The notes beneath the pieces were generated by a model, which ran no database searches, had not been told where the DNA came from, and saw nothing but the letters and a program-made list of their open reading frames with translations. Source: a virus. From it: a stretch of DNA of 40,374 bases. The stretch's first letter is position 1. Each line of letters begins with the position of its first letter. The stretch covers positions 1 to 40,374 of the IMG/VR virus record IMGVR_UViG_3300025407_001065; one strand, given 5' to 3'. The translations under genes and the position numbers were made by a program. Below are positions 109 to 36,650 of this stretch, piece after piece.

Positions 109-1062
109 TTATGACTTTGCTTTGGTGCTCACACGAATTGGTGCCTTGCCACTGCCGCCAGTATCTTTACCGCCACGACCTGCTGCGTTTTGTGCTTTGC
201 GCTTACGAGTAACTGCACTCTTCTTTTGCGCAGCACTCATGCTACGTGCTTTTGCTGCTGGAACACATTTAGCATAACCACTCTTGCTACCACTGGTACC
301 GCATGGGGGATGCTTACCACCGACTTTCTTGCCAATATTAACCCACTTGTCCTTAAACCACTTATGAAGATTGCCGCTTGCTTCTGGTAGCACTAAATTA
401 CCACAGTGCATGCAATAATCAACTTGTTCAAGTAGCACACTTTCTGTAATTGGGTCACAGCGCAGTTCTGTACTTTCTGTGGCCATTTCTGTTGCGATTT
501 TTTTCTTATATACGTATAGTTTGTAACCTGAACTATCATCGTTAAAAATTTTATTCTGTTGAACTGGATCGGTTACAGCCTTAAAACCCATCTGCTCAAA
601 GAATTTTGCTGCCCTATCATATAATTTAATTCTGCTTAATTCGTTTGATTTTGCGCCCATGACAATTACTTCGGCATTGGGATGTCTTGCAATAAAGTGA
701 TTTAAACAATAGGCAACACCGTTAAATATTTTAAAAACAGTATCCTTTTCAGTTCCAGTTGCAGCATGGGTATCGGGTCTTGACTGTGTTTTATTTTCGA
801 AAGCCAATACATAATAATTTTCATTATATTCTTTAAATGTGACTTCAATTTTGGTTTTACCAACAGTGAAATCATAATCAGAACCGTAATTATCTGCATA
901 CACGTCAAAATTTTCTGGCGCTTTATTTACATCAATAAATTCTTCAATTTCTTCGCTTTCGTTCTTGACGCAGTTTGGGTATGTCTTGCCAAACATCTTC
1001 TTGTTACCTTCTTTGTGGTAACCTTTCCAACATGCTTCACCAAGAACATCTTCCATCTTCAT
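109..1062 (-). CDS. Putative packaged virion protein with Cys-rich and basic C-terminus
   Basis: This 317-residue protein is not assigned an enzymatic role. The N-terminus MKMEDVLGE|A (residues 1-10) matches the hydrophobic-x-Glu|Ala site of T4-type prohead proteases. A CWKGY...GK.YPNCVK segment (11-33) follows, of a kind I recognise from phage structural proteins. The centre (about 50-190) is an alpha/beta domain without recognised catalytic residues. A second site-like ITE|S (205-208) precedes a CxxC zinc-ribbon-like motif (C217, C220) and a Lys/Arg-rich tail resembling the DUF5872 family. The start overlaps the upstream gene's stop by 4 nt. The inference is a capsid-internal, possibly DNA-binding protein. 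Confidence 0.7.
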   Translation of the reverse strand: MKMEDVLGEACWKGYHKEGNKKMFGKTYPNCVKNESEEIEEFIDVNKAPENFDVYADNYGSDYDFTVGKTKIEVTFKEYNENYYVLAFENKTQSRPDTHAATGTEKDTVFKIFNGVAYCLNHFIARHPNAEVIVMGAKSNELSRIKLYDRAAKFFEQMGFKAVTDPVQQNKIFNDDSSGYKLYVYKKKIATEMATESTELRCDPITESVLLEQVDYCMHCGNLVLPEASGNLHKWFKDKWVNIGKKVGGKHPPCGTSGSKSGYAKCVPAAKARSMSAAQKKSAVTRKRKAQNAAGRGGKDTGGSGKAPIRVSTKAKS

Positions 1063-1463
1063 TTGGATTTATTTCCCCAATTTTTAGCACCAGCCTTACG
1101 GCACTTAACTAGCGCACCACTTGCGTAAGCACTTGGCCATACTTTGTAACGGCTCTTTACTTTATAATAGCAAGCATCCTTCTTTTCATCTACACGAGAT
1201 TCTGGTAGCATAAGTCCGCCACAATGCGGGCAACTTTCTTCTACATGGTCGTGTGCGGCACTGCCAACAATTTCATTATAATTGTCCATGCAAAGATAAT
1301 CGTGGTGCTTGGATAATTTAATCATCTTTTCAGCAACATCATGCAAATCTTCATCGGTTTTTGCATCTTCACGAGCATATTCCATCATACGTAGCAGTAG
1401 CGGAATATCCATACTAACTGTATCGGTTTTGTCTGCTTCGCTTACAATCTGCCTAATACGCAT
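1059..1463 (-). CDS. Small putative packaged protein with CxxC zinc-ribbon motif
   Basis: A 134-residue protein beginning MRIRQIVSE|A, so its first nine residues look like a capsid-targeting and cleavage peptide. Another VEE|S (74-77) immediately precedes the motif SCPHCGG.MLPES. This parallels the 317-aa neighbour, where CMHCGN.VLPEA also follows an xTE|S site, so the two share a module. The C-terminus (KVKSRYKVWPSAYASGALVKC split around Cys, then AGAKNW) is a basic, Tyr/Trp-containing segment I associate with phage proteins of unknown role. It abuts both neighbours (1-nt and 4-nt overlaps), as in a translationally coupled operon. Confidence 0.7.
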   Translation of the reverse strand: MRIRQIVSEADKTDTVSMDIPLLLRMMEYAREDAKTDEDLHDVAEKMIKLSKHHDYLCMDNYNEIVGSAAHDHVEESCPHCGGLMLPESRVDEKKDACYYKVKSRYKVWPSAYASGALVKCRKAGAKNWGNKSK

Positions 1464-3274
1464 TACTTTTTGCCTTTAGGTTTTTTACCACGTTTTTTCA
1501 TATTAATAGCAATAGCTGCTTGCTGTGCAAGATTCTTTGCTTCATCTAACATACGCATGATATCACGACTGTTGTTACTTTCAGTTCCACTTGCCATATA
1601 TTCGTGATCATCAAAGTTTTCCATTTCTTTCTTTAATGCTGCACGTTCTTGTGCTGAAAGTGTGCCATATGCTTTCATAATGCTACGCACATCTCCTGAT
1701 ACAGGCGCTGCTGCTCCACCTGCTGCTCCACCTGTTGGTGCTGTAGTGGGCGCTGCCGCTCCACCTGCCGCTCCACCTGCTGCTCCACCTGCTGCTGGCG
1801 CTGTTGCTGGCGCTGTTGCTGTAGGAGCAGCTTGTTTTGGCGCACGGGACCCACGAGGGAATGGAATTTTCATATTCTTAAATGTAGTTTTAATTATTTC
1901 ATCGCTAACGCCTTGCTTGCGTAAAAAGTCAAGAACTACTGCACTATCAACGCTTTTAGATTGCCCGCTGTATGAAAAACCAGGACCGTTTTTCCATGCA
2001 TTGTTTAGCTTGTCTGCAGTAACTTTATTGGCTAAATTGCTGCCAATCGTGCTTACTTTATTACCAATAGCACTACCAATATTTTTCAAGCCTTGAACAA
2101 AACCAGCTTCTTCAATTTGATGGAAAATTACAGGAACTGCGCTTTCAAATACCCACACGCTGCGAGCGCCATCATCAAGTACGCCTTCACGTAAGAACCA
2201 ATCTTGCATTGTAGCATCACGATCTACATATTGGCTGCTATTTGTAACTTTCTTAGCACCTGCGGCTGCTACTCGCTTTGCAGTATCTGATGCTGTACCA
2301 ACACCACCTTGATAAATTGGATTACCCGTTGGCTTTGGAATTTTAAGTGTAGCGCCAGCACGAATTGCATCTGGGTTATTAGCATATTGTGGATTTGCAT
2401 CAACTAAATCTTTTACACTTACATTATATTGTTTAGCAATAGTGCTTAAATTAGAACCATTTGGCACCTTCATAGTAGTATAATCTTGCGGACCTAAATC
2501 AGTACCAGCACGATATCCTTGAACACCTGATACATTATTTTGTGCTGCAGTTGTATCATACGGACCACCATCAGTACCAGCATGATATCCTTGAACTCCT
2601 GATACATTATTTTGTGCTGCAGTTGTATCATACGGACCACCATCAGTACCAGCATGATATCCTTGCACCTTTGATGGGGCAGGAGCGGCACCTTTAAGAT
2701 AACTTGCTAATTCACGACCAAGACCAGCAGCACCAGCAGTAACACCGCCCTTAATCATAGCAGCACTTAGTTTATCGCCTTGTAGCAGACGATCTGTCAT
2801 CTTCATAAGACCCAACACTGCAATGGGAGCAGCACCACCAGTTGCTAAGCCAACGACTGCAACAAGTGCGCCATAGATTAGATTTTGAATAATTGGATGC
2901 TTTTTAGCAAGCGCACGATACGCATAAACATGCTTAGCAAGACCTTCGTCACCACCAGTAGCATCTTTTAGTTTTGCAGCCATACTATCAAAAGCATTAT
3001 CAAATCCTTTAACTGGACCTAAATTTCCAATTTTAGAGATAATACCTTGATATGCATTATTTACAGCAGCGCCTGCTTTGCCAGCAACATCTACGCCTTT
3101 GCCAAGCGCAGTTCTGTTAGTGCCACTTGCTCTTGCGCCTTGCTCAATTGCACCAAAAAGCGCAGTAATCTGCTCTGGACTTAGTTTTGCTTCACTAATC
3201 GCACGACCGGCACTAGTCCAACTTTCCATTAGCGGATTAAAATCTGCTGCTTCAAATAACGCTGTTGTATTCAT
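1463..3274 (-). CDS. LysM-containing virion polyprotein candidate
   Basis: 603 residues. Four matches to the prohead-protease consensus are visible: LFE|A (6-9), ISE|A (26-29), IEE|A (387-390) and LDE|A (576-579). The hydrophobic Ala/Gly segment at about 130-160 could be membrane-active. Residues 203-250 are two perfect 24-residue repeats starting VQGYHAGTDGG, with a diverged third copy to about 267. A LysM-like domain (about 267-315, with GSNLSTIAKQYNVS and LKIPKP) suggests peptidoglycan contact. Residues 390-465 form a helical domain, followed by an Ala/Gly/Pro/Thr linker (481-524) and a Lys-rich tail. Inference: cut in the capsid into at least three pieces. Role unknown. Confidence 0.75.
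   Translation of the reverse strand: MNTTALFEAADFNPLMESWTSAGRAISEAKLSPEQITALFGAIEQGARASGTNRTALGKGVDVAGKAGAAVNNAYQGIISKIGNLGPVKGFDNAFDSMAAKLKDATGGDEGLAKHVYAYRALAKKHPIIQNLIYGALVAVVGLATGGAAPIAVLGLMKMTDRLLQGDKLSAAMIKGGVTAGAAGLGRELASYLKGAAPAPSKVQGYHAGTDGGPYDTTAAQNNVSGVQGYHAGTDGGPYDTTAAQNNVSGVQGYRAGTDLGPQDYTTMKVPNGSNLSTIAKQYNVSVKDLVDANPQYANNPDAIRAGATLKIPKPTGNPIYQGGVGTASDTAKRVAAAGAKKVTNSSQYVDRDATMQDWFLREGVLDDGARSVWVFESAVPVIFHQIEEAGFVQGLKNIGSAIGNKVSTIGSNLANKVTADKLNNAWKNGPGFSYSGQSKSVDSAVVLDFLRKQGVSDEIIKTTFKNMKIPFPRGSRAPKQAAPTATAPATAPAAGGAAGGAAGGAAAPTTAPTGGAAGGAAAPVSGDVRSIMKAYGTLSAQERAALKKEMENFDDHEYMASGTESNNSRDIMRMLDEAKNLAQQAAIAINMKKRGKKPKGKK
2474..2668 (-). repeat. Tandem 72-bp coding repeat (2 full copies plus a partial)
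   Basis: Two adjacent 72-bp units (2668-2597 and 2596-2525) encode the same 24 residues (VQGYHAGTDGG...NNVSG). A diverged partial third unit (2524-2474) encodes VQGYRAGTDLGP. The units are nearly identical at DNA level, which points to recent slippage or unequal recombination. The core G-Y-x-x-G-T-D-x-G-P also occurs at the C-terminus of the upstream 310-aa protein (GYWKGTDKGPPGKK). Confidence 0.9.
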
Positions 3275-3275
3275 C

Positions 3276-4208
3276 TTAATTGCTTCCTACCATTTTTTTG
3301 CCGGGCGGACCCTTGTCGGTACCTTTCCAATATCCAGTAAATTTTGGACCAGTTTGACCTTTGCCTTCTACTTTACGCTTTTTCTTTTTCTGATTATAGG
3401 TTCCGCCAAATAGCGAACCAACATTATTGCTGCCTGCACCACCATTCATTGCGCCAACTGCAATACCACCAGCACCGCTTGCGCCAGCACTTGCACTTTC
3501 ACCGATTACATGAAAACCTGCTTGTTGTTTGCTTTTAACTTGTGTGCTTGGCACCATAATAGCCTGACCTTGCACATTGCCATTGGTATCAATCTTTGCC
3601 ATTTTTACCATGCCAGGAGTCTTAGTAGCGCCTGGTGGTGTATTTGGCTTACCGCCTGGTGTGCCATTGTTGGCAGTAGGTTGTGGTGTTCCCATTTGCT
3701 GACCTTGAGGTGGTTGTAATTGACCTGGTACTTGTGGGTCTTCCATCATTTCTTCTTCTGGATAGCGCATTTCATAATCCATATAATCAAATACGCTTTC
3801 AATATAATCTGCAGCACGAGTTAGTTTGCGCTGCACCCATCCATCTAATCCTTGTTCTTCACCAACATTCTTTAGCAGTTCGTGCAACATGATTGCTAAC
3901 TTTGCTGTGCGATAAAGATCAGCACGAGCCATATGAACTTCATTATCACGTGGTTCTTCACTATAATTTGAACCCATTGAATATGAACGTTGTGGCTGAC
4001 TTACAATCTCACAATCACATTCATCAAGACTTGTAATAGTTTCTGGTAATTTAATAAGATAACGACCAGTAGGCAATTTCCATACAGAAGTTCCACGAAA
4101 ACGTTGTAATAATTTTTCTGCATCATCGTAATTTACAATGACAGGACGATCATCCTTGTATAATATTTTTCCATATACTGAACTGTCATGAACTTTGTAG
4201 TTACTCAT
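3276..4208 (-). CDS. Conserved phage protein, Pro/Gly-rich, with GTDKGPPGKK tail
   Basis: 310 residues of unknown function. The N-terminal ~150 residues are a compact acidic/aromatic domain. Residues 155-200 are Pro/Gln/Gly-rich, and 238-270 are Ala/Gly-rich. An IGE|S (235-238) matches the prohead-protease site. The C-terminus YWKGTDKGPPGKKMVGS is a signature I recognise from T4-like phage virion-associated proteins and matches the repeat core of the downstream 603-aa protein. A late-type box AATAAATA (4234-4227) sits 18 nt upstream, with AAGGAT as ribosome-binding site, so late expression is likely. Confidence 0.7.
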   Translation of the reverse strand: MSNYKVHDSSVYGKILYKDDRPVIVNYDDAEKLLQRFRGTSVWKLPTGRYLIKLPETITSLDECDCEIVSQPQRSYSMGSNYSEEPRDNEVHMARADLYRTAKLAIMLHELLKNVGEEQGLDGWVQRKLTRAADYIESVFDYMDYEMRYPEEEMMEDPQVPGQLQPPQGQQMGTPQPTANNGTPGGKPNTPPGATKTPGMVKMAKIDTNGNVQGQAIMVPSTQVKSKQQAGFHVIGESASAGASGAGGIAVGAMNGGAGSNNVGSLFGGTYNQKKKKRKVEGKGQTGPKFTGYWKGTDKGPPGKKMVGSN

Positions 4209-4226
4209 CTAAGATATCCTTTGAAT

Positions 4227-4234
4227 TATTTATT
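4227..4234 (-). promoter_or_regulatory. T4-type late promoter box AATAAATA
   Basis: AATAAATA on the minus strand matches the NATAAATA late consensus of T4-like phages. It overlaps the stop of the upstream gene. Initiation about 6 nt downstream would give a transcript starting AAGGAUAU, placing the ribosome-binding site at its very 5' end. Confidence 0.55.
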
Positions 4235-4565
4235 AGTTTGAGGTAATCTGTATTCTATAATCTGTAGATGAATATGTAAAAGTGTTGCCCATACCATTTA
4301 CTAATCTATCTTTATTGATAAAAAATCTAGCAATTTTTATTTTTTTGTTGCCTATGTTTTGTATATTAACTTTAATATTTTTTATATGTTCATACGAAAA
4401 TATAAATCGTTCAACGAGCATTTTGTCACTTGTAATTGCGGGAAAAACACGTTCTACAAATAATTGATTATTTGCTGTTATTCTATAAACAATATCACCT
4501 TTAACATAATCGTATGTTTCGGGATATAAAACTATAGCAATTTCAATTTCTTTTTCTTCTAACAA
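4233..4565 (-). CDS. Hypothetical protein, TTG start
   Basis: 110 residues, not recognised. It looks like an all-beta protein (alternating hydrophobics, IAIVLYPETYDYV, KIKIARFFINKDRL). The only sensible start is TTG at 4565, which overlaps the upstream stop as ATTGTTAG. The next in-frame Met is about 48 residues in. It contains no Cys and no signal peptide. Its position at the end of a three-gene overlapping run suggests coupled translation. Confidence 0.55.
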   Translation of the reverse strand: MLEEKEIEIAIVLYPETYDYVKGDIVYRITANNQLFVERVFPAITSDKMLVERFIFSYEHIKNIKVNIQNIGNKKIKIARFFINKDRLVNGMGNTFTYSSTDYRIQITSN

Positions 4566-4825
4566 TTAAACACCGCAACTAAATCCTTATATAATTTAGT
4601 GCTACGTGCTCGCTCTTGAAGATTTTCACTATTTTTTATCTTATTGATTTTGGCACTCAAGCGGCGTAAATCGCTGCGAGTAAGTTTTCTGCGCATCTTC
4701 TTGCGTAGAAACGATAACGCCTGTCGTTTTAAATTGACAGGCGGTTGGTATGTTGTGGCGTGTTGGAATTCTTCCCAAAGTTCGGTAACTTCATCCCAAG
4801 TGTCAAGGGTTTGTGTATCATACAT
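4559..4825 (-). CDS. Hypothetical small basic helical protein
   Basis: 88 residues, rich in Lys/Arg/Leu with a helix-forming centre (LRKKMRRKLTRSDLRRLSAKINKI). A good ribosome-binding site (GAGGGAAC) lies 4 nt before ATG 4825. It lies 10 nt after the nucleotidase stop and overlaps the next gene by 7 nt. No family recognised; a nucleic-acid-binding role is possible from charge alone. Confidence 0.6.
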   Translation of the reverse strand: MYDTQTLDTWDEVTELWEEFQHATTYQPPVNLKRQALSFLRKKMRRKLTRSDLRRLSAKINKIKNSENLQERARSTKLYKDLVAVFNC

Positions 4826-4835
4826 AGTAGTTCCC

Positions 4836-5393
4836 TCATGCTAATTCTCCCTGTTTAGCAAAACGCTTAAGTGTTTTGGCAACACGGGCGAAATCTCTAT
4901 CATCATATTTGATACCAATACCACCAGCCATCTGCCATGCCGTTATGTTTTTACCATAGTCATCAACAAGAATGTTGGAAACGCCACGTTCATTGGTAGC
5001 AAACTGTGCTTTATTATGTGTTAATTCAATTCCGCTTGGCAACATGTCATTGAAATGCATATTAATCCAAGCACGTTTTCCACTTTCGCTGCGACTGTCG
5101 CCAGCCAGTGGAGTAGAACAAATATAATATTCACCAAATGTTTCTTTGACAGTGCGAACAAGTTCCCTTGCATGAGGAAGTAAGGGAAGATTTACCCAAA
5201 ATGTAGGATGGTCTCGCACAAGTTGTAATTTGGCTTCTGGGTTATCAATATCTTTATAGTGGTCTTTGCCATCAAGCCTAGCCCACTCACCAAAGAAGTC
5301 AGCCAATACGCCATCCATGTCTAGATAAACTTTGAACTCTGTTTTGACGACTTCATCTATACGCATGCGATTATTTATCCTGATTTTGACCAT
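4836..5393 (-). CDS. 5'(3')-deoxyribonucleotidase-like HAD phosphatase (NT5C family)
   Basis: 185 residues. The HAD motif I DMDGVLADF (D25, D27) and a C-terminal motif NILVDDYGKNITAW identify a 5'-nucleotidase of the NT5C type, which dephosphorylates (deoxy)nucleoside monophosphates in phage nucleotide metabolism. Two starts are supported. ATG 5393 lies 5 nt below a sigma70-like -10 (TATGAT). ATG 5366 (MRIDEVVK) lies 5 nt below a late box GATAAATA. The two products would differ by nine N-terminal residues. It lies amid probable packaged proteins, but VVKTE|F is only a poor match to the cleavage site. Confidence 0.85.
   Translation of the reverse strand: MVKIRINNRMRIDEVVKTEFKVYLDMDGVLADFFGEWARLDGKDHYKDIDNPEAKLQLVRDHPTFWVNLPLLPHARELVRTVKETFGEYYICSTPLAGDSRSESGKRAWINMHFNDMLPSGIELTHNKAQFATNERGVSNILVDDYGKNITAWQMAGGIGIKYDDRDFARVAKTLKRFAKQGELA
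5372..5379 (-). promoter_or_regulatory. Late promoter box GATAAATA, 5 nt before an internal ATG
   Basis: GATAAATA, followed by ATCGC and then ATG (5366). T4-type late initiation about 6 nt past the box would start the mRNA on this AUG. It lies within the coding sequence of the longer nucleotidase form. Confidence 0.5.
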
Positions 5394-5398
5394 GCTAC

Positions 5399-5426
5399 AT
5401 CATAGCATATTCTGTGGATAAGTCAA
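5399..5426 (-). promoter_or_regulatory. Sigma70-like promoter for the nucleotidase
   Basis: TTGACT (5426-5421), a 16-bp spacer, and TATGAT (5404-5399), then 5 nt to ATG 5393. No ribosome-binding site fits between, so the early message is predicted to be leaderless. Confidence 0.6.
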
Positions 5427-5429
5427 GTA

Positions 5430-5594
5430 TTATCCAAAAGAATGGACACGGCGCTCAACTTTGGATACCCATGCCTTACTAGGCTTTCCATGACCTTTAT
5501 AGTATTGTAGCGGCTTGCCAGTTGTTTTACTGACAAGCGCCCAACGACCTTTTACTTTTTTCAATGTTTCGGTTATAAACTCGTGTGCTCTCAT
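5430..5594 (-). CDS. Small putative internal capsid protein (T4 IP-like leader)
   Basis: 54 residues from ATG 5594, which overlaps the upstream stop as ATGA. A longer frame exists, but this start gives the canonical leader. MRAHEFITE|T closely resembles the capsid-targeting peptide of T4 internal proteins (MKTYQEFIAE). The mature part would be about 45 residues, basic, with the pattern GRWALVSK...YYKGHGKPSKAWVSK.ERRVHSF, a small conserved phage module of unknown role. Inference: packaged with DNA after cleavage. Confidence 0.65.
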   Translation of the reverse strand: MRAHEFITETLKKVKGRWALVSKTTGKPLQYYKGHGKPSKAWVSKVERRVHSFG

Positions 5595-8500
5595 GATAGT
5601 TGCCCTACGCTCCAACCAGTTAGTCCAGCACCATTTGCTAGCGGTGTAAAATGGCGCACCGCATCTTGATAAGAATTAAAAGTTCCATTTTCTGATATCT
5701 GTCTACCTTGAACAAATAGCGCATACTCACCACGCCCACCAGGATTTGCAATTCTAGGTCTAGGTGCTGGTGTAAGTTCAGCAGCAGGTTGATTTACAAT
5801 AGCCTCGCCTGGTCCCATATAGAATAATTCTTGTTCTTGGGTATCGGGATCAACAGCAAACATCTGAATACCATTAATGCCACCCAATGTGCCACCCCAA
5901 CGCACCGAACTGCTATTGCGTCGTTGAATATCATTAGCATGCTCTTTTGCTTGTTCTGGATCGTTGTAAGTAAATGAAGTAATGGTTTGTCCAGTATCTG
6001 TGTATTTTAACAGATACTTTACAGCACGACCTGTAGCAGCACCAGAAGCAGTTGTATTTGATTGTGCCGCTTGTGGTGGCAGTGATGGCACACGGTCTTC
6101 GCCTCTACTAGTAATACGCATCATTTCATCACGCAAGTATTGTAGTGAATATTCATCTAATAGTAGAACACCAAAACGATCTGCTCGCAAACCACTTACG
6201 CCCCAATGTTTTTCAGCCGCAGGAGCAGCCATCTTTACTATTTCACTTTGATATGTTGAATACATTTCAACCTGTGGAATAAACACTATTGTTTTACTGT
6301 CCATTTCATTTGGATTAGTAGAATAGTATTGAACACGAACCATACTGTAGCCAGGGTAACGCAGACTTACATCAGCAAGTGGCATCTGACGGTCATGGGC
6401 AAACTTCACTGCTGCCTCAATCATATCATATGGAGCAGTGCCATTGATTTTTACTACTTGCTCGCCGTCTTCATTTTCCAAGAAACCATCAACTGGTCCG
6501 CTGCCTATCGGTGCAATAGGCTTACGACGCTCTTGGGCAGTGCGTAATTCTTTAACAAGTTGTTCTTTGTCAATAGCGCCAGCAGTGTATTTGGCAAACA
6601 ATTGCATAGTATTGTCTTTTTCACCTATACCAGCACTTACAAACTTATACAGTTTCTTTTGATATTCTCTGCTTGCATCTTCAGTATCAGCAGCGGCACC
6701 TATGACACGAACATAACGCAACATAGTATTGCGAATTTTTTCATATTGTTCAAAATAGTTACCACCAGCACTGCGGAACTCAATATAATTTGGCTTGATA
6801 TTCACGCTAACATAACGGTCGCCACGAGGAACCAATAGTTTATTGATTTCTTTTTTGGCAATATCTTGCAATCCACCACGCATCTTATCAAGGATTGCTG
6901 GTACATTCTTTCGGGCATTTCTACCACGCACTTCACGCTTTGCTTGATCAAAACTACTCTTAGTCCATCGTGAACCAGCACGACCAAATGCTTTAAGCAC
7001 ATACTCATCACCAAGCAACATGATTACTTTAAGATGGTCAATGTTTTCTAAGGTTTGATTAGGGATACTAACACCAATATGGAAACCTGTTGTGCGGTTT
7101 GTATAATAATCATTGCTCTTTGCCCAATCAAATACATTCTCTAACGCAGCCAAGCCATCTTCTAGGTTCATTGGAGGTGATACAAGTTCAATACCACCAT
7201 CGCCATCATCATTTGGACTATCTAGCGAACTATCTGGTTCAAATATCCAAGTGCTTTCATCACGAGTTGCTCCGTGATATCCACTGCTTGCTCGTGCTTT
7301 ATAACCAGTTGTGCGTCTAAAATCATCAACAACATCACCAATGTCTGTGGTTGGTTCTTCTCTACTTCTGCTATATGTATAATGCGGCCAAGTTAGCGAT
7401 TCACGAGTATTGCGATTTACCCAACGCATCCAATCATACATGTCATCAATGCTATTACGACTTAAGAATCTGCCCCAAGTATATTCTTCGTTTTCTTCCA
7501 TCCAATTGGTGCGAACATTATCTTTGGCATCATCAAGTTCTCGCTCACTTGCCTCGTCCATAGGCGTATCGCCTAATTCTTCTTGAACTGCGTCTTTGTA
7601 ATCATCAGTGCCTTCAAATTCATTATCATAGGTTTCATATTGGTATTCACTAAATGCTTCATAGAACGATTCTAATGCACTTTCAACATCACTGCGAGTA
7701 TTGTAATCGCTAACAAAAAAATCCATAACATCACGCTGACGATCACGATATGAAGCCGTGCCAGGAAAATCCTCATTGGCATCCATATCCTCTTCTTCTT
7801 CCTCATCGCCTTCTTCACCGCCAAGACCAGGAATATACATTTCGGTTTCAAATCCAACCTTCATGCTCTTGGCAAATGGAGTATCAGCAAACTTTTCAAG
7901 AGATGTAGGACTCATATTGATTTCGTTTAGGATACTTTCTTCAATACTTTCGTTACGAGGAGCAAGTTGAACTTCATAATCCTCATCACCAAGATGTTCA
8001 TCTGACCAAGATTCAGCATAGCGTTCAGCACCACGAGGTGATGCTGCACGGAACTCGTGGACTACACCACCTCTGGCAATGATTTGGTATTTTACACCTT
8101 CCACAGCAGTAATGTTAGAAGATGTGGCTGTTGCATTTGCTGGAATAGCATTGCCCGTAATATCATAACCACGATCTATTTCTAACTGTGAATATTGGCG
8201 TGGTTGTTCTGGTTGTGCGGTTGGTTGAGGAATTACTTGACCTTGCGTATCCCATAGATTATTGTTGTTTGGTGATCTTATAGCAATACTTGCTAATGGT
8301 AGATTACGTTCTTGCGCAAATCTTTGGGCTGCTTGCGTTGCTGCGTAAAAACTTTGTGCTTGTGTTGCTAATAATTCTGTGCCATCGCTACGGTTTACAA
8401 CAACATAGGTTGCTGCGCCACCACTGGGCAATTGTAGTGCTTGTGTACCAGCACCAGGTATTGGTGTATTTGAATCATCGTTTGCAAGGGATAAGAACCA

Positions 8501-10417
8501 ATCGCTATCACGATAACCATATTCACGCGTCAGACGAGCAGCAATGTCTCGTGCTTGCTCATTATCTGGCGCACGAAACTGTGTAACCGCCTGCTGATTG
8601 TTTGATCTGCGGATAACATACATAGGTTGAATAGATGATACAGTTCGATCACCGCCAATTGATAATGGTTGGCGTGTTAGAATATCATCTGCTTGACCAT
8701 CACGATCACGAGTATCTCTTAACGCTACTAGGTCAAATGAACGACCACTTGCTCGCACTATGCGTGTGGCAATATCATATACATCACTGTAAGTCATTCT
8801 TGGAGATACTACAAATGATTGCCATGGGTTGCCAGTTATACGACTGATAATCTGAAATGTAATACCACCAATCCCATCGTAATCTACATACGGTGTATCA
8901 TCATCGTCACCACCACCAACATTTGGTTGCGGTGCTTTTGCTTTCTTGGCAAAATCACGCTTGCTTTGTGCTGTTTTAACATAACTTATAAGTGCTGCGC
9001 GAGGCATATTACCTGTTGCAAATGCTGTGAAATACTTGATAGTATCGGTTTCATCTTTTTTATCAGCAGTAAGCAGTTTGGCAAATTTCTTTTGGTATTC
9101 TTGGCGTTCTGCTTCTGGGTCAAGGGCAATGTTCATAGCATATACAACACGTAACAGTGTGTTTACTACTTCATCAGTATCCATATCAAGCCAGTTACCG
9201 CCTGGTGAACGAAACTCTACACGATTATCTTTTGTATTGATACTTGTAAACTTGTCAGTATAACCACTGTGAATAAGTTTGGATGCTACTAGATTTAAAT
9301 TCTGACGCATCGCATCAACGGCTTTATTAGCCTTTTCTGGATTTTGTTTAATGAATGAGGCAATCTGTTCAAACGCACTACGAGCGTATGAATTACCAAG
9401 ACGACCAAACTTTTCAAGAATATACTTGTCGCCTAAAAATAGTGCAAGTTTAACATAATCAAGTTTATCTAACTTATAACCTGGTATAGAGATGTTCATA
9501 TGCAAACCAGTTTTATCATTGGTATAAGCATTGCCATCTTTTGCCCACGCCTTGACCTTATTGATTTGGTCAATCATAGTTGTGATATCAAGTGGTGGTG
9601 ATACAAACTCTAAACCTTCGCCACCTTTGCCACGAGTAGGTTGTAGACTGCTATCTGGTTCAATAACATACGCATCGTTTGGCTTTGCTATGCCGTGATA
9701 ACTGCCGCTCTTAATAGTCTTCATACCAACAGCACGACGGAAATCACCTACATCAACAGTAGAGCGAGTTCTGCGGTCATAATAATCAGGTTCAGTCCAG
9801 TTTGGCCAAGATAGCCCAAGACTGCTATTATTTGCCAAATTACTCATATATGCGCCACCATAGTTGTCTTCTAAAAATTGTTCAAGATAGTCGTCAATGT
9901 TATCGTCATCTTCAAGATTATCTACCCAAGTTTGGAAATATCGTGATTTAAACTCTTCATATGGATCAATCGTATCAATTTCTTTAAATAGTTCTGCTTG
10001 ATTAGCATAATCACGACCATAACGTTGGTCAATAAAATCTTGAATACGGGCGCTAGTATAATTATCCCATAGCGGACCTTCAATATAATCGTTCCATGCG
10101 TCATGGATCAAAGCAGTTGCAAAGTTTACTTCACGACGACTATTGTGGTCGCCAACGAAGAACTGCGTAACATCTTGTACTAATGCACTAAAACTTGCGG
10201 TAGAAACACGCTCATCTTGGTCATAGTCTGGTTCGCTATCAAAGTCTTCATATGGATCATAATCATCATCTTCCTCTTCTTCAAGATTAGTGACGATAAG
10301 TTCAAATTCAAGACCTGCCTTGGCATTGGGAATCTTTGCCACTGCCGCACGAAGGGCTGACGGACTCATATTCACTTCATTTAGGATTTCTTCAAGGATT
10401 AGGTCTTTGTCGCTCAT
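5591..10417 (-). CDS. Tandem amidoligase-like polyprotein, putative packaged protein
   Basis: 1608 residues built from two related halves. Each half has an amidoligase-like core (COOH-NH2 ligase, Amidoligase_2 pattern). Copy 1 has GLEFE (35-39), EPDSSL (253-258), VSPP (272-275), GLHMNIS (304-310) and VEFRSPGGN (400-408). Copy 2 has GFETE (855-859), EPDSSL (1060-1065), VSPP (1089-1092), GFHIGVS (1111-1117) and IEFRSAGGN (1212-1220). Such enzymes join amines to carboxylates, often on peptides or peptidoglycan. Each half opens with the same signal, ILNE|VNMSP (11-18) and ILNE|INMSP (829-836), each preceded by a second xEE site. Several small alpha/beta repeats follow each core. The late box lies 5 nt from ATG. 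Confidence 0.8.
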   Translation of the reverse strand: MSDKDLILEEILNEVNMSPSALRAAVAKIPNAKAGLEFELIVTNLEEEEDDDYDPYEDFDSEPDYDQDERVSTASFSALVQDVTQFFVGDHNSRREVNFATALIHDAWNDYIEGPLWDNYTSARIQDFIDQRYGRDYANQAELFKEIDTIDPYEEFKSRYFQTWVDNLEDDDNIDDYLEQFLEDNYGGAYMSNLANNSSLGLSWPNWTEPDYYDRRTRSTVDVGDFRRAVGMKTIKSGSYHGIAKPNDAYVIEPDSSLQPTRGKGGEGLEFVSPPLDITTMIDQINKVKAWAKDGNAYTNDKTGLHMNISIPGYKLDKLDYVKLALFLGDKYILEKFGRLGNSYARSAFEQIASFIKQNPEKANKAVDAMRQNLNLVASKLIHSGYTDKFTSINTKDNRVEFRSPGGNWLDMDTDEVVNTLLRVVYAMNIALDPEAERQEYQKKFAKLLTADKKDETDTIKYFTAFATGNMPRAALISYVKTAQSKRDFAKKAKAPQPNVGGGDDDDTPYVDYDGIGGITFQIISRITGNPWQSFVVSPRMTYSDVYDIATRIVRASGRSFDLVALRDTRDRDGQADDILTRQPLSIGGDRTVSSIQPMYVIRRSNNQQAVTQFRAPDNEQARDIAARLTREYGYRDSDWFLSLANDDSNTPIPGAGTQALQLPSGGAATYVVVNRSDGTELLATQAQSFYAATQAAQRFAQERNLPLASIAIRSPNNNNLWDTQGQVIPQPTAQPEQPRQYSQLEIDRGYDITGNAIPANATATSSNITAVEGVKYQIIARGGVVHEFRAASPRGAERYAESWSDEHLGDEDYEVQLAPRNESIEESILNEINMSPTSLEKFADTPFAKSMKVGFETEMYIPGLGGEEGDEEEEEDMDANEDFPGTASYRDRQRDVMDFFVSDYNTRSDVESALESFYEAFSEYQYETYDNEFEGTDDYKDAVQEELGDTPMDEASERELDDAKDNVRTNWMEENEEYTWGRFLSRNSIDDMYDWMRWVNRNTRESLTWPHYTYSRSREEPTTDIGDVVDDFRRTTGYKARASSGYHGATRDESTWIFEPDSSLDSPNDDGDGGIELVSPPMNLEDGLAALENVFDWAKSNDYYTNRTTGFHIGVSIPNQTLENIDHLKVIMLLGDEYVLKAFGRAGSRWTKSSFDQAKREVRGRNARKNVPAILDKMRGGLQDIAKKEINKLLVPRGDRYVSVNIKPNYIEFRSAGGNYFEQYEKIRNTMLRYVRVIGAAADTEDASREYQKKLYKFVSAGIGEKDNTMQLFAKYTAGAIDKEQLVKELRTAQERRKPIAPIGSGPVDGFLENEDGEQVVKINGTAPYDMIEAAVKFAHDRQMPLADVSLRYPGYSMVRVQYYSTNPNEMDSKTIVFIPQVEMYSTYQSEIVKMAAPAAEKHWGVSGLRADRFGVLLLDEYSLQYLRDEMMRITSRGEDRVPSLPPQAAQSNTTASGAATGRAVKYLLKYTDTGQTITSFTYNDPEQAKEHANDIQRRNSSSVRWGGTLGGINGIQMFAVDPDTQEQELFYMGPGEAIVNQPAAELTPAPRPRIANPGGRGEYALFVQGRQISENGTFNSYQDAVRHFTPLANGAGLTGWSVGQLS

Positions 10418-10422
10418 TTATA

Positions 10423-10430
10423 TATTTACC
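10423..10430 (-). promoter_or_regulatory. Late promoter box GGTAAATA, 5 nt before ATG
   Basis: GGTAAATA, then TATAA, then ATG 10417. There is no ribosome-binding site. The box-to-start distance equals that of two other boxes (5379 and 40107), which supports a leaderless late mRNA. Confidence 0.45.
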
Positions 10431-10434
10431 GTTT

Positions 10435-13400
10435 TTAAGGTTTGCGTTGTTTATTCAAATACTGTACTTTTGCGCCATTTTCATCTGGTTCAACCTCACG
10501 ATCCCAAGGAAATGTGGCTACCTGACGGTCAGGATAATCATTGCCGCCACCAACAGTTCCTATGATAGAACCAGCGTGTTCATTTTGTTGCGGTCCAAAT
10601 TTCTTTATAAACTTTGCTTTGTCTTTTGGCATTTCGTAGTCTAATGAAATTTGGTTATCAATTCTGCCTCGCTCATCAACTATTATATCAACTGCAATAT
10701 GCTTAAATCCAAGTGCAGTTTGTGCATATACACGATACATCTTTTTAAGGTCAGGCAAGAAACCTTGAACAAAAAACGAAACGGTTGCTTTTGCAAAACG
10801 CACATATCCAAGTTTAAATGCTTCTTCATATCCATCAATGTCTTTACTATAAAGCCATCCCAGATGTTCTTCCTTCGTAACATATTCAACTTTGCGATTA
10901 GGCAAAATCCAACCATGTGTTTCATTCGGGTCAAGTGCTTCTTCAATGCTTTCACTTTGTTGTGCTTCTGCATCCCACTTCTTGTGTAAGAATGTTAGCA
11001 AACCTTTTACATCGCTAGCACCGATTTTGCGCATTGCTGCAATAATTTTAGTTGCTGCTTCATAACCACTGTTGCCTGGCTTACGAGCATTGGTAATTTC
11101 ATTACGTAACCCAAGGTCATCAGCAAACTGACCACCGCTCCAATAGGTTAAACTATAACGCAGTTTATTTGCTTCTTTGGATAACTCACTGCGTTTCTTC
11201 TTAAAGATAAGTTCTAACCAAGGAGCAAGATATTTCTTACCATTAAAGGTGCTTATATAACCAGTCTTCTTTTGACCACGAATTAAATCTTGGGCTTTGC
11301 TTACTGGTATTGCTCGTTTGGTGTCCTGTAACTTCCACGCATTTTCATTGCTATAAAGATAAGTTGGTAAGCCACGCTTCTTTGCTACAATCATTAACTG
11401 ACGAGTAGTTGGGCTTGCAAATTCACCTGCTTCTTTAAGCAAAATATGAACGGCTGTAATAGCATCTGCTGGTATTGTTGGCTCACGTGAGAATACACGG
11501 TCTTCGCTTTCACTGTGCTTTTGCTTATCAAATCCTGCCCAATAGTCAATTGCTTTAACTGGATAACGACGATTAAACCAATTGCCATCAAGATTAAACA
11601 TAACAGCAGTGCCGCCAGTAAATTCGTGATAACCGCCTACTTTGCTGCGAGTGGTAGATAAGAAATAGTTATAACCTTTTGGCGCATACTGATCTTCTAC
11701 ACTACCAGTAGAAATGCTCAACATAAACTCATTGTTTTTAAGAATGTTTAATGCTGCCCCTACACTGCCTGTATAGTGGAACAGCACTGGTGATGCTGCT
11801 TCGTCAATTTGTGATTCTGCTACTAATTCATTCTTTGTGATAGATTTCATAATCGGTAGATAGCGTGGTTGAACTTTTTCCATATCTTCACGATGTATGT
11901 CAAGATGACCTTTGCGAATAAGTTCTGCGTGATACATAAAATCACCAAAACCATCTTCTTCTTGTGAAATATGTTGATTGGCATAGTCTTCAAGTTCTTG
12001 TGCTATTGCCAACATGTTGCTATTTGGTTCAATAGTTTCATCTAAATCTTTACGATGACTGCGCTTGTAATATGAACACCAACCATTTGGCGCAATCTTA
12101 CCACTAACAGCCGAACAACCATGAGGAGGACGCCACATAGTGCAATGATCACAACGTTGACCATTGCGAGGCATATCCTGGTACTTTGCTACGGCTTTGG
12201 TTGATTTTTCTGCTGCTTCATCTAAATTTTCATTTGCCAAGTCAGGAGCAACCATATAACTGTTCTTGGAACCTGGTGGAAATTCAAAACGTTCCATGCC
12301 TTTCTCACGAGCAGCGGCACGAGCCTTCTTGAACATTAGCGTCCACCAGCGGCGATTAGCATAATCTTTATTGCCCATATAGGCTTTTGGATCAGTAATG
12401 CGCAACTCTGCCCATTGGTCAGGAGTTAGGTCTTCATCTAATTCATACTTTGGCAAACCATATAAATCAAGGTCTGTGCCGTGTGTAGAACCATAATCGG
12501 TATCGTCCTTATTAGGTTCATATGGTTTGCGACCACGTTTTACAAGTTTAGGATTATCGCCCCAATCGCCACCAATGCCTGGTGCTTCGGTAACAATGCC
12601 CATTGCCTTTAACATAGCACGAGCAACTACACGGTCTTTTTCTTTTTCTACTTCTGGCAACTGTGCATAAGTTTGTTGGGCAAGAGCATAACGTTTCTTT
12701 TTCTTGTCGGGAATAGTTGGAGTATCTAACTGCAACTTGCCCATATAATCAGCCACGGCAGTTTTATTCCAACCATCGTGGATAGCATTAGCAATTGCTT
12801 CTACATCTGTAATGCCACTATCAATCATACGCTTTGCAGCAGTGGCACTTTCAATGTTTGCCAACCAACCAAAGTTATTGGTAGGTGTAGATAAACCATA
12901 GTGATAAGCATCATCAAGTGCTTTATCACTTATGTGTGCAAGTTGTTCTACTGATAGGCTTTCACGGATAATGCTTTCACTGATAATACTTTCTTCAACT
13001 GTCTCACTTAGTCCCATGCCACTACGAACTGCTTGGAATAGTGTTTTACCATCTACCATAATATTTTGTGGCACACGGGTAGCACGTTCAAATGCTTCTG
13101 GGTCACCAATCTTCGCTGCTTCACGAGCATTTGTAGCACTCGTTAAGCGAGGGCTTTCCATAAAGGATAACGGTTCAAACTGATAGAAACCGTGTGCTAC
13201 TTGCTTGCCGTTGTATTGTTCCAATACTGGTCGCATTGATGCCATATCGTCTTCACCAGCCACGAAAGTGGCACTACGGAAGCCTTTGTCATAAAGATAT
13301 GCGGCTGCTTGTAAGAATGTTTTAATTGAGGGGTCTTCAACGAGATGTCCTTGTGTTTGTGGATAAAGTGTTTTTACCCATTTTACTTTTTGATCATAGG

Positions 13401-13587
13401 TAAGAGGATTCTTTTTAGTATCTTGACTTTTACTAAGGAATAATGCCCAACTGCCTTTCTTTGCCACGCTGGCAAGAGTATTAATTAACCCTTCGTGTCC
13501 AAAGTGCGGAGGGTTCATACGTCCAAATGCAAATGAAATATGCGGATTTGGTGCTTCGTTAAAAATGGTGCGATGGCTTAAGGTCAT
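10435..13587 (-). CDS. Multidomain packaged polyprotein: nucleotidyltransferase, HiPIP-like, ART-like
   Basis: 1050 residues. MTLSHRTIFNE|A is the leader. Residues 16-190 form a HIGH-superfamily nucleotidyltransferase (FGRMNPPHFGH at 21-31; TSATNARE at 149-156, an ISSTxxR-like motif). Site-like motifs then divide the chain: VEE|S 199, ISE|S 204, IRE|S 209, VTE|A 334, LDE|A 457, IDE|A 596 and IEE|A 883. Residues 479-504 hold C-x2-C-x8-C-x12-C with GWC, a HiPIP-like signature. Residues 597-770 (FHYTGS, YFLSTTRS, ESEDR) resemble an ADP-ribosyltransferase fold. The C-terminus is unknown. T4 Alt is a precedent for a packaged, cleaved ART. The ART call is tentative. Confidence 0.75.
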   Translation of the reverse strand: MTLSHRTIFNEAPNPHISFAFGRMNPPHFGHEGLINTLASVAKKGSWALFLSKSQDTKKNPLTYDQKVKWVKTLYPQTQGHLVEDPSIKTFLQAAAYLYDKGFRSATFVAGEDDMASMRPVLEQYNGKQVAHGFYQFEPLSFMESPRLTSATNAREAAKIGDPEAFERATRVPQNIMVDGKTLFQAVRSGMGLSETVEESIISESIIRESLSVEQLAHISDKALDDAYHYGLSTPTNNFGWLANIESATAAKRMIDSGITDVEAIANAIHDGWNKTAVADYMGKLQLDTPTIPDKKKKRYALAQQTYAQLPEVEKEKDRVVARAMLKAMGIVTEAPGIGGDWGDNPKLVKRGRKPYEPNKDDTDYGSTHGTDLDLYGLPKYELDEDLTPDQWAELRITDPKAYMGNKDYANRRWWTLMFKKARAAAREKGMERFEFPPGSKNSYMVAPDLANENLDEAAEKSTKAVAKYQDMPRNGQRCDHCTMWRPPHGCSAVSGKIAPNGWCSYYKRSHRKDLDETIEPNSNMLAIAQELEDYANQHISQEEDGFGDFMYHAELIRKGHLDIHREDMEKVQPRYLPIMKSITKNELVAESQIDEAASPVLFHYTGSVGAALNILKNNEFMLSISTGSVEDQYAPKGYNYFLSTTRSKVGGYHEFTGGTAVMFNLDGNWFNRRYPVKAIDYWAGFDKQKHSESEDRVFSREPTIPADAITAVHILLKEAGEFASPTTRQLMIVAKKRGLPTYLYSNENAWKLQDTKRAIPVSKAQDLIRGQKKTGYISTFNGKKYLAPWLELIFKKKRSELSKEANKLRYSLTYWSGGQFADDLGLRNEITNARKPGNSGYEAATKIIAAMRKIGASDVKGLLTFLHKKWDAEAQQSESIEEALDPNETHGWILPNRKVEYVTKEEHLGWLYSKDIDGYEEAFKLGYVRFAKATVSFFVQGFLPDLKKMYRVYAQTALGFKHIAVDIIVDERGRIDNQISLDYEMPKDKAKFIKKFGPQQNEHAGSIIGTVGGGNDYPDRQVATFPWDREVEPDENGAKVQYLNKQRKP

Positions 13588-13596
13588 TATACAATC

Positions 13597-13615
13597 CAGA
13601 TAAAATATTTATCTG
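13597..13615 (-). promoter_or_regulatory. Late promoter box inside an inverted repeat
   Basis: An 8-bp stem CAGATAAA/TTTATCTG with a 3-nt loop contains the box GATAAATA (13613-13606), 18 nt before ATG 13587. Initiation about 6 nt past the box falls inside the 3' arm, so a late transcript would lack the hairpin and a read-through transcript would carry it. Confidence 0.55.
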
Positions 13616-13630
13616 TATAATGGGTAGGGG

Positions 13631-14758
13631 TTAATTTGGTGTCCAGCGATGACGAGGCACAAGTTTAATATTAGGTTCGCCATAATTAACATAACCTTCG
13701 CCACCTTTTTGACCTTTGGTAGTTTGTTGAATATCGCCACCTTCACTATCTAATTGGTCAATAATTTGATTCTTAACCGTGCGAAGATTTTCTAATACCG
13801 CAAATGTAGCAATAAATCCTCGTTGATTTTGCGCAATCCAGTCTTGAATTTTTTGTTGCATTGGCGCAGATTGCCTGCTACTGCTAGTTAGCCAAGTTAT
13901 AAATTCACTTGCAAGGTCATTTGTTCTGCCAACCCTTGCCATCTGATTGTTAAAGTTATAAAGAACGCCTTTAAATCCTGCCATTTTCATAGCAGCAAGG
14001 CGTTCATCATTTAAAAAATTATCAATAGCAACTTTATTTGCAGCAACATATTTCTGTAAGTCTTGTAATTTTTTTGTATCAATTTTAACGGGTTGCTGTG
14101 CATATTTTGGACCCAACACAATTAAACCTTGTGTTTTATTAAATGGCGTAAAATCATCAATAGGTTGCTGTTGATCATCGCCCATACCAAACTGTGGAAA
14201 GTATGCATGTCCTACAACTGCTGCGGTTGCTTTTGATATACGTTGGCCAAGTTCAGTTGATTGTGGTACGCTATAGGTAACATTGTTTGGTGTAAATGTG
14301 TATGCATTATTTTCTAATTGGGGACGACGCATAAACAATAAATCACCATACACATAACCACGAAAATCTTGTGGAGTTGCTGCTTCAAACAGCGCCCATA
14401 GACTAGCATACTCATTAGCAAAACGCATACGTTCATCTTCTTTATCGGGCGTAACATTGCCAGTACTCATGATAAATTTAACAAGTTCTGCTGGACTTTG
14501 ACTTTTTCCGCTGCTATCGGGTTTTAACCAACCATTGTGTCCAACCATGATAAATTTACCATTTGGCTCACGTCCCCAATATACTTGAGGTTTGCCATCC
14601 CATTTCCAACGCACGGTTTGTGGATTGCTTGCGAGAGCGGAAAGACGAGAAATGGCAGTAGATGCACCATCACTGCCATTTATCAATACCAAATCTTCTA
14701 CGTGCTGAAATGCACGTCCTACTTTTGGTGCCTCGTTTACTATCTGATTTATGAACAT
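13631..14758 (-). CDS. Ligase-fold (KxDG) packaged protein, DUF6267-like
   Basis: 375 residues from ATG 14758; one codon further upstream is a TTG. MFINQIVNE|A is a perfect targeting/cleavage leader. The body shows covalent nucleotidyltransferase motifs in order: motif I WKWDGKP, motif III-like YVYGDLLF, motif IV GEGYV and motif V IKLV. This suggests an ATP/GTP-dependent polynucleotide-ligase or capping-enzyme fold related to phage DUF6267 proteins. No separate OB-fold domain is evident, so activity is uncertain. Context with other packaged enzymes suggests it is delivered with the DNA. Confidence 0.7.
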   Translation of the reverse strand: MFINQIVNEAPKVGRAFQHVEDLVLINGSDGASTAISRLSALASNPQTVRWKWDGKPQVYWGREPNGKFIMVGHNGWLKPDSSGKSQSPAELVKFIMSTGNVTPDKEDERMRFANEYASLWALFEAATPQDFRGYVYGDLLFMRRPQLENNAYTFTPNNVTYSVPQSTELGQRISKATAAVVGHAYFPQFGMGDDQQQPIDDFTPFNKTQGLIVLGPKYAQQPVKIDTKKLQDLQKYVAANKVAIDNFLNDERLAAMKMAGFKGVLYNFNNQMARVGRTNDLASEFITWLTSSSRQSAPMQQKIQDWIAQNQRGFIATFAVLENLRTVKNQIIDQLDSEGGDIQQTTKGQKGGEGYVNYGEPNIKLVPRHRWTPN

Positions 14759-14762
14759 CAAA

Positions 14763-36299: not shown

Positions 36300-36650
36300 T
36301 TAGACACTAATACTTGTTCCGCATCCACATGAACTCTTAGCCATTGGATTTGACACAACTAATTGACTGCTTACAAAATCACTCTTATAATCAATTTCAC
36401 TACCTAACAGATACATTAATCCGCTGCCATCTACGATAAGTGACTTACCTTCGCCTAAAGAGATCATCTCATCAATTTGCGGTGAGCCATTCTTAGCATA
36501 CAATTCATCATCAGCAGGTTCCCAGAAATATTCGAAGCCTGCACAGCCACCACCTTTAAGTCCGAATACAAGATATGGCTTGTCAATATTGATAAGTGTG
36601 CGACGAATATGAGTTTTTGCTGCTTCTGTAATAGTTACTGCTGTTTTCAT
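36300..36650 (-). CDS. IscA/HesB-type iron-sulfur carrier
   Basis: 116 residues with the A-type carrier layout: MKTAVTITEAAKTHI start, GLKGGGCAGFEY (C36) and C-terminal SSCGCG (C108, C110). All three cluster-ligand cysteines are present. Such proteins deliver Fe-S clusters to apoproteins; in phages they are auxiliary genes of unclear target. It sits with a 2OG-Fe(II) oxygenase-like gene, a possible iron-related pair. AGGATAAG ribosome-binding site. Confidence 0.9.
   Translation of the reverse strand: MKTAVTITEAAKTHIRRTLINIDKPYLVFGLKGGGCAGFEYFWEPADDELYAKNGSPQIDEMISLGEGKSLIVDGSGLMYLLGSEIDYKSDFVSSQLVVSNPMAKSSCGCGTSISV

Follow-up and report, generated by a model that had tools for sequence, protein, structure and literature searches.

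Prohead-protease-type sites at domain borders suggest a modular capsid polyprotein in an uncultured T4-like phage

The internal head proteins of phage T4 (IPI-IPIII and Alt) bear capsid-targeting sequences that are cleaved by gp21, and in IPIII the replacement of the P1 Glu by Asp inhibits this processing (PMC9026906). In phiKZ-like phages (SPN3US gp245; 201phi2-1), cleavage after Glu by the prohead protease extends to many head proteins (PMC10052503, PMC9026906). Polyvalent proteins represent another arrangement, with many effector domains on a single, rapidly shuffled polypeptide, which have been proposed either to be delivered intact or to cleave themselves by means of a built-in metallopeptidase, as in P1 DdrB (Iyer et al. 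2017, PMC5512222). Here we analyse a protein of 1050 amino acids (aa) encoded by an uncultured virus (IMG/VR record IMGVR_UViG_3300025407_001065; the whole 40-kb stretch of 40,374 nt is referred to below as the window). Its open reading frame (ORF), confirmed at positions 10435-13587 on the minus strand, probably specifies a modular head polyprotein, which a gp21-type S77 prohead protease would cut into separate capsid cargo proteins that are then ejected. The source, described as a freshwater virus infecting bacteria, is assigned by gene content to the T4-like myoviruses, since both a 1270-aa protein (30213-34025) and the nucleotidyltransferase (NTase) domain of the polyprotein match cyanophage-type T4-like phages.

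The locus resembles the T4 internal proteins in its leader of about 10 aa ending in an xE site, in the S77 protease and gp23 found in its relatives, and in an enzyme cargo that includes an ADP-ribosyltransferase (ART)-like fold; unlike in T4, where each gene encodes one cargo protein and Alt loses propeptides at its two termini only, about eight cargo modules share one ORF here. With polyvalent proteins it has in common the many effector domains per polypeptide and their rapid shuffling, and ART-PolyVal (PF18760, 63.2 bits) and ParB (ParB_N) domains occur in related polyproteins, whereas the ART-like module of the window polyprotein has no Pfam match. In contrast to polyvalent proteins as presented in the portion of PMC5512222 considered here, its modules are separated by prohead-protease sites. 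Several cuts within one protein are also a feature of phiKZ-like phages (PMC10052503, PMC9026906), but in SPN3US, the protease's own cuts aside, those identified give N-terminal propeptides and not several separate mature effectors. The system would join polyvalent proteins (PMC5512222) to the principle of capsid targeting known from T4 (PMC9026906). Literature searches, whose coverage left out bioRxiv preprints and most subscription journals, found no published prohead-protease effector polyprotein, nor was a cultured phage with the full architecture found. RNA viruses and retroviruses also rely on one translation product from which a virus protease releases several mature proteins, sometimes inside the assembling particle; the present system differs in belonging to a double-stranded DNA phage, in carrying cargo effectors and not replication or structural proteins, and in having fused and separate states that interchange freely.

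Cleavage-type sites and module identities

A sequence-only reading of this ORF had proposed a multi-effector capsid polyprotein and placed protease sites at residues 199/204/209, 334, 457, 596 and 883; on recount, all seven positions were correct. Outside the leader, nine matches to [LIV]xE↓[AS] were observed (199, 204, 209, 334, 457, 591, 596, 719 and 883; ↓, predicted cut) versus 1.84 expected, a number reached by 0/5000 shuffles. The restriction of P1' to A or S was that reading's own post hoc choice; with any P1' residue, [LIV]xE showed no significant excess in the ORF (16 vs 12.3, P = 0.155), so the P1' residue matters. The proposed position of the sites at domain borders is borne out by coil in an AlphaFold2 (AF2) model, by homology breakpoints and by the complete domain formed by residues 458-517. 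In the AF2 model of the ORF (shallow alignment; mean predicted local distance difference test score, pLDDT, of 55), all sites except 719 lie in or beside low-confidence coil. Four further borders had likely been missed, at residues 195 (LSE↓T), 385 (LDE↓D), 517 (LDE↓T) and 591 (VAE↓S), with 385 and 517 being module junctions in relatives. Site 719 (LKE↓A) was rejected as a cut site and is probably a chance match, because it falls within the confidently modelled ART-like fold and its P1' residue is not conserved (A/R/K/Q/T in relatives).

Relatives comprised 21 loci in viral contigs, together with others found through single modules, and their proteins were aligned. In all relatives having a leader (13/13), its site keeps F/L at P3, E at P1 and A at P1', with N/A/K at P2; P3 is mostly F, unlike the L/I of T4. 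Site 596 retains L/I at P3 and E at P1 while P2 varies between D, G, Y and T (LDE, IDE, LGE, LYE, LTE; one row of this alignment is a misaligned, non-homologous segment), and P2 of site 457 varies between D, E, N, K and S. Near-fixed P1 Glu, hydrophobic P3 and drifting P2 make up the pattern that would be expected of an [L/I/V]xE protease.

Among the modules (Table 1), residues 12-195 are predicted to be a cytidylyltransferase-like NTase domain, with matches to phrog_3041 (E 4e-35) and phrog_395 (E 6e-25), the motifs HFGH and SATNAR read in the sequence, and a PF01467 score of 17.1 bits, under the cut-off of 21. This domain occurs stand-alone or within shorter proteins in cyanophages, Melnitz and C48C1, and a single family model, phrog_455, covers DUF6267 plus NTase. 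Module 2 scored 16.7 bits against PF02026 (RyR), below the cut-off. Module 5 matched the high-potential iron-sulfur protein (HiPIP) PioC (PDB 6xyv) at E 5e-11 over 49/60 residues and combines the four-Cys spacing with this sequence match to solved HiPIPs; scores were 40.9 bits for NCBIfam Iro (cut-off 100) and 20.4 bits for PF01355 (cut-off 22). Residues 458-517 are predicted to be a complete, PioC-size HiPIP with a [4Fe-4S] cluster, so that two flanking cuts would free an entire Fe-S protein of known size. No cellular relative of this Cys module was found in a scan of a genome collection.

For residues 597-883, modelled with a pLDDT of 76, the top PDB match in Foldseek was DarT1 (8baq; E 3.2e-3, probability 1.00, TM-scores 0.31/0.40), and the HYT and E..EDR motifs are invariant, which suggests a DarT-like ART fold for module 7. 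Searching Pfam, PDB and PHROGs with the sequence of this module yielded no useful match, the pointer to DarT coming from fold comparison only; when the model of all 1050 aa was used as the query, its low confidence left the fold search without a significant match. Among the domains of related polyproteins are ART-PolyVal, ParB, GNAT, cytidine deaminase, LysM and SLT.

Module exchange, stand-alone counterparts and the head protease

Between relatives, whole blocks are present or absent, and block edges coincide with the motif. Module 2 is swapped as a block for other modules in two relatives; module 3 is missing as a block in four, where GVQINE↓DLTP takes the place of YELDE↓DLTP; module 4 is missing as a block in another four, and module 6 is missing or replaced by other modules in six. 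Partial deletions of module 8 begin after a site in two relatives (SVGE↓H, DIEE↓H), ParB-like modules are inserted between LANE↓ and KVNE↓AAEKS, KDLDE↓ is followed by different modules (P1' T, A or S), and the 195-209 tract holds several multiplied sites whose number differs between relatives. When homology breakpoints in the ORFs of the loci were compared with random positions in the same proteins, [LIVMF]xE lay within 5 residues in 43/79 junction families versus 14.7 expected (maximum of 29 in 1000 draws).

Many of the same domains also exist as separate genes with leaders, and the leader ends correspond in register to the internal sites. The internal border of the ART-like module reads QIDE↓AASPVLFHYT, and its stand-alone counterparts begin with MQIKELITE↓SLSPIVFHYT in one uncultured locus and MRAIEFIIE↓SLSRIVYHYT in two others, and among isolates with MNLNE↓SLSATVFHYT (Salicola SCTP-2) and MKKFNEFANELAE↓AVNDTVYHGT (Vibrio K566); these leaders end in register with site 596. 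The NTase leader is MTLSHRTIFNE↓AP in the window versus MKKFSEIIE↓ARGDTAV in the Methylophilales phage Melnitz, whose NTase protein of 650 aa also contains internal sites and makes Melnitz the nearest cultured candidate found. The reverse arrangement is provided by the neighbouring amidoligase gene, which in the window begins with its own leader, MSDKDLILEEILNE↓VNMSPSAL (ending in ILNE↓VNMSP), and is fused to the polyprotein in seven relatives: in one (L011), both share a 2286-aa frame with the junction IITEELLNE↓VNMSPSAL, in others (such as L004) the junction is DLDE↓VNMSP, and in a further one (L076) everything lies in a single 2851-aa ORF. Likewise, NT5C has its own gene in the window and is a domain within the polyprotein of one relative. 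The neighbouring genes for amidoligase, DUF6267 and NT5C form part of the same exchangeable set as the polyprotein modules. As a separate observation, phage C48C1 encodes the small domain AAWKTGHRPGTTPQQW in a gene of its own, following LEE↓G, while in Melnitz this domain lies inside the NTase protein, an instance of the same fusion or fission in Kyanoviridae.

A second, more standardised border was seen in other viruses. A ParB-like module occurs in 31 viral loci, the residue preceding it being Glu in 24/24 distinct N-terminal contexts, many of which read KQGVAE↓G. The 20-nt sequence encoding KQGVAEG was present in at least 120 stretches in a DNA scan of the viral collection, and 88/88 examined copies were read as KQGVAEG within an ORF of 100 aa or more, as compared with 1 and 0 copies for the shifted frames and 32% for random positions. 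There were 59 families among the 75 usable downstream stretches and 43 among the 75 upstream ones, and the cassette ORFs contained 269 other [LIV]xE↓[AGS] sites versus 107 expected. The same 15 nt are shared by 11/18 copies, with variation at synonymous sites; because these copies were chosen by peptide, the QGVAE variant count alone is no proof of peptide selection; the frame count given above, which starts from the DNA scan, is the test free of this bias. Two cassette polyproteins were compared with isolates, none of which had the same architecture, one domain being matched in Vibrio nt-1-like phages. Polyproteins linked by KQGVAE↓G are, as judged from sequence, widespread in uncultured viruses, and together with the exchangeable neighbour genes they make the element broader than the sequence-only reading had described. 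The 20-nt cassette was also noted to be identical in DNA across many unrelated viral contigs.

The protease and the major capsid protein (MCP) were sought in relatives. A 111-kb relative (G002, the contig that carries L011) encodes an S77 gp21 (E 2e-27) and a gp23 (E 3e-98) whose leader contains LAE↓N. Across these families, gp21 was present in all 13 contigs in which gp23 was found (G002 included), and the MCP leaders in the gp21/gp23 contigs hold fitting sites (LAE↓N, LRE↓N, LVE↓T); contigs with neither gene are mostly fragments. Among isolates, the closest found to the G002 MCP, at 68% identity, were those of the jumbo phage PA5oct and related phages. In PA5oct, an isolate with annotated virion mass spectrometry (MS), no polyprotein was found and the NTase is stand-alone. 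Anecdotally, several PA5oct proteins detected by MS begin with a leader-like sequence (for example MKKVFE↓A and MFLKDVKITE↓S), and one of them, a 395-aa structural protein (156341-157528) with the leader MFLKDVKITE↓S, contains five [LIV]xE↓[AS] sites.

Weighing the polyprotein against its alternatives

The ORF contains several autonomous domains bounded by predicted virus-protease sites, as in a processed polyprotein, the protease gene being seen in relatives only. The multi-effector capsid polyprotein proposed by the sequence-only reading is the best-supported explanation, given the in-register stand-alone leaders, the module exchange at sites and a relative with both gp21 and gp23, and the comparative evidence for a polyprotein is strong. 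It is also the most economical way to account for these leaders, the breakpoint bias, the unconstrained P2, the protease genes and the neighbours that occur both fused and split. The N-terminal leader would direct the polyprotein to the prohead core, and inside the prohead the gp21-type S77 protease, to judge by motif, register and co-occurrence, would cut after [L/I/V/F]xE at module borders. This would yield about eight mature proteins: an NTase, a HiPIP-like Fe-S protein, a protein with a DarT-like ART fold, and five of unassigned function. By analogy with T4 Alt and internal proteins, the released proteins would be ejected with the DNA and act on the new host. Self-sufficient cut sites would let modules be gained, lost, reordered or split off without harm to their neighbours, which we infer to be the reason for the mosaicism observed among relatives. 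At the sequence level, other uncultured phages have standardised the border as the KQGVAE↓G cassette, which would have the same function.

With less assurance, yet on balance, we favour a more general interpretation, in which aquatic T4-like phages share a delivery architecture of effector modules on interchangeable prohead-protease linkers, so that any acquired domain could become released capsid cargo. LxE tracts would serve this lineage and KQGVAE↓G others, and the border would amount to an evolutionary 'cloning site' whose enzyme is the head protease. If true, large aquatic phages would deliver many early-acting proteins at once from one gene, the capsid maturation protease would double as the processing enzyme for injected cargo, and domains that alternate between leader-bearing genes and polyprotein modules would be explained. 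The cut sites would then also lead directly to such proteins, since their positions divide long phage proteins that lack annotation into individual mature effectors (59 downstream families among 75 stretches near one cassette alone), and confirmation would establish a little-known route for loading many host-manipulating proteins into the virion together.

Several observations count against processing by a head protease. The window is a 40-kb fragment that does not include the gp21/gp23 region and holds no gp21, and both proteins are inferred from relatives. Two large cassette contigs (262 and 200 kb) have neither S77 nor gp23 by profile, being either incomplete or users of a different head protease. 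Leader-like motifs are not enriched among MS-detected proteins of PA5oct (14/92 vs 26/229, P = 0.35), and for any individual gene the motif by itself is therefore weak evidence. In 36/79 breakpoint families, no motif lies within 5 aa (many are inside modules or at fuzzy alignment ends), and some junctions lack a hydrophobic P3 (ANE↓G, TNE↓A). One relative (7929-10196 of its contig) encodes a polyprotein without a leader, starting MANNPHIAF, in which the deletion ends exactly at the cut site and the internal sites are kept, and the ART-like gene of Dickeya JA13 is a counter-example without a leader.

The strongest rival, though an unlikely one, is that a polyvalent protein is packaged and injected intact, with the leader alone removed and the internal motifs left as scars of gene fusion. 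N4 vRNAP and similar polyvalent proteins are packaged unprocessed (PMC5512222), and many modules do exist as separate leader-bearing genes. Fusion scars should decay, yet only P2 drifts whereas Glu at P1 and a hydrophobic residue at P3 are kept, the site tract at 195-209 has been multiplied and the KQGVAEG cassette is reused in frame throughout; moreover, any LxE accessible inside the prohead should be cleaved in any case. Intact delivery therefore leaves the continued usability and multiplication of the motif unexplained.

That the motifs are instead DNA recombination points, short repeats for module shuffling and not protease sites, we regard as very unlikely. The near-identity of the cassette DNA fits such a role, but the borders in the window's lineage are not DNA repeats (LDE, VNE, VTE, IEE, VAE), the cassettes vary synonymously and avoid the shifted frames, and the register with N-terminal leaders would be left unexplained. 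The DNA-identical cassette may nonetheless serve as a recombination point in addition to being cleaved. Less probable still is a core or scaffold protein that is fragmented and discarded during maturation like T4 gp22: although T4 core proteins are cut by gp21 into multiple fragments (PMC9026906), the modules here have autonomous homologues, are exchanged as whole domains and retain the motifs of enzymes and metal sites (HxGH, four-Cys HiPIP, HYT..EDR). Chance motifs in acidic, flexible linkers, for which the lack of enrichment of [LIV]xE alone in the ORF might speak, are hardly credible in the face of the site enrichment, breakpoint bias, gene-block concentration, P1/P3 conservation, in-frame cassette and in-register stand-alone genes.

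Gene block and further features of the window

The strong multi-site excess is concentrated in a contiguous gene block of the window (109-14761), where a leader-like site lies within the first 20 residues in 7/10 ORFs versus 3/32 elsewhere (Fisher P = 4e-4). Outside the block, two small ORFs (25248, 39124) carry 2 sites each (P about 0.01, uncorrected).

Table 1 Features of the polyprotein and its neighbours in the window (residue numbers refer to the 1050-aa protein; ↓, predicted cut)
Feature	Coordinates	Strand	Basis
N-terminal leader, capsid-targeting-like, MTLSHRTIFNE↓, residues 1-11	13555..13587	-	P1 E, P1' A, P3 F/L in relatives
Module 1, predicted nucleotidyltransferase, residues 12-195, HxGH and SATNAR motifs	13003..13554	-	Profile matches
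Multi-site linker, residues 196-209: VEE↓S, ISE↓S, IRE↓S	12961..13002	-	Site number varies in relatives
Module 2, helical domain, residues 210-334	12586..12960	-	Weak RyR match; block replacement in relatives
Module 3, residues 335-385, after VTE↓A	12433..12585	-	Missing as block in some relatives
Module 4, residues 386-457, after LDE↓D	12217..12432	-	Missing as block in some relatives
Module 5, HiPIP-like, predicted [4Fe-4S] domain, residues 458-517, four Cys	12037..12216	-	PioC match
Module 6, helical domain, residues 518-591	11815..12036	-	Absent or replaced in some relatives
Module 7, ART-like domain, residues 597-883, HYT and E..EDR motifs	10939..11799	-	AF2, Foldseek, stand-alone genes
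Module 8, C-terminal domain, residues 884-1050, after IEE↓A (including stop codon)	10435..10938	-	Partial deletions in relatives
Companion 1608-aa protein, leader MSDKDLILEEILNE↓, two amidoligase copies	5591..10417	-	PF12224 47.1 bits, 2 stretches
Upstream DUF6267 gene, leader MFINQIVNE↓AP	13631..14761	-	PF19782 99.8 bits
NT5C gene, separate in window	4836..5393	-	NT5C domain inside one related polyprotein (L070)
Cys-rich protein, leader MRIRQIVSE↓A	1059..1463	-	Similar domain after QSVAE↓G in another polyprotein (L067)
DUF6934-like protein, leader MKMEDVLGE↓A, three sites	109..1062	-	Domain and site scan
LysM protein, 603 aa, leader MNTTALFE↓A, six predicted cut sites	1463..3274	-	Domain and site scan

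In the amidoligase companion, IEE↓SILNE↓INMSP precedes the second copy. The LysM protein contains near-identical tandem repeats, GVQGYHAGTDGGPYDTTAAQNNVS. Elsewhere in the window, at 36300-36650 on the minus strand, a 116-aa protein resembles, by eye only, an A-type Fe-S carrier (IscA/ErpA-like, CGCG end), and its presence on the same fragment as the HiPIP-like module possibly reflects a link between the two.

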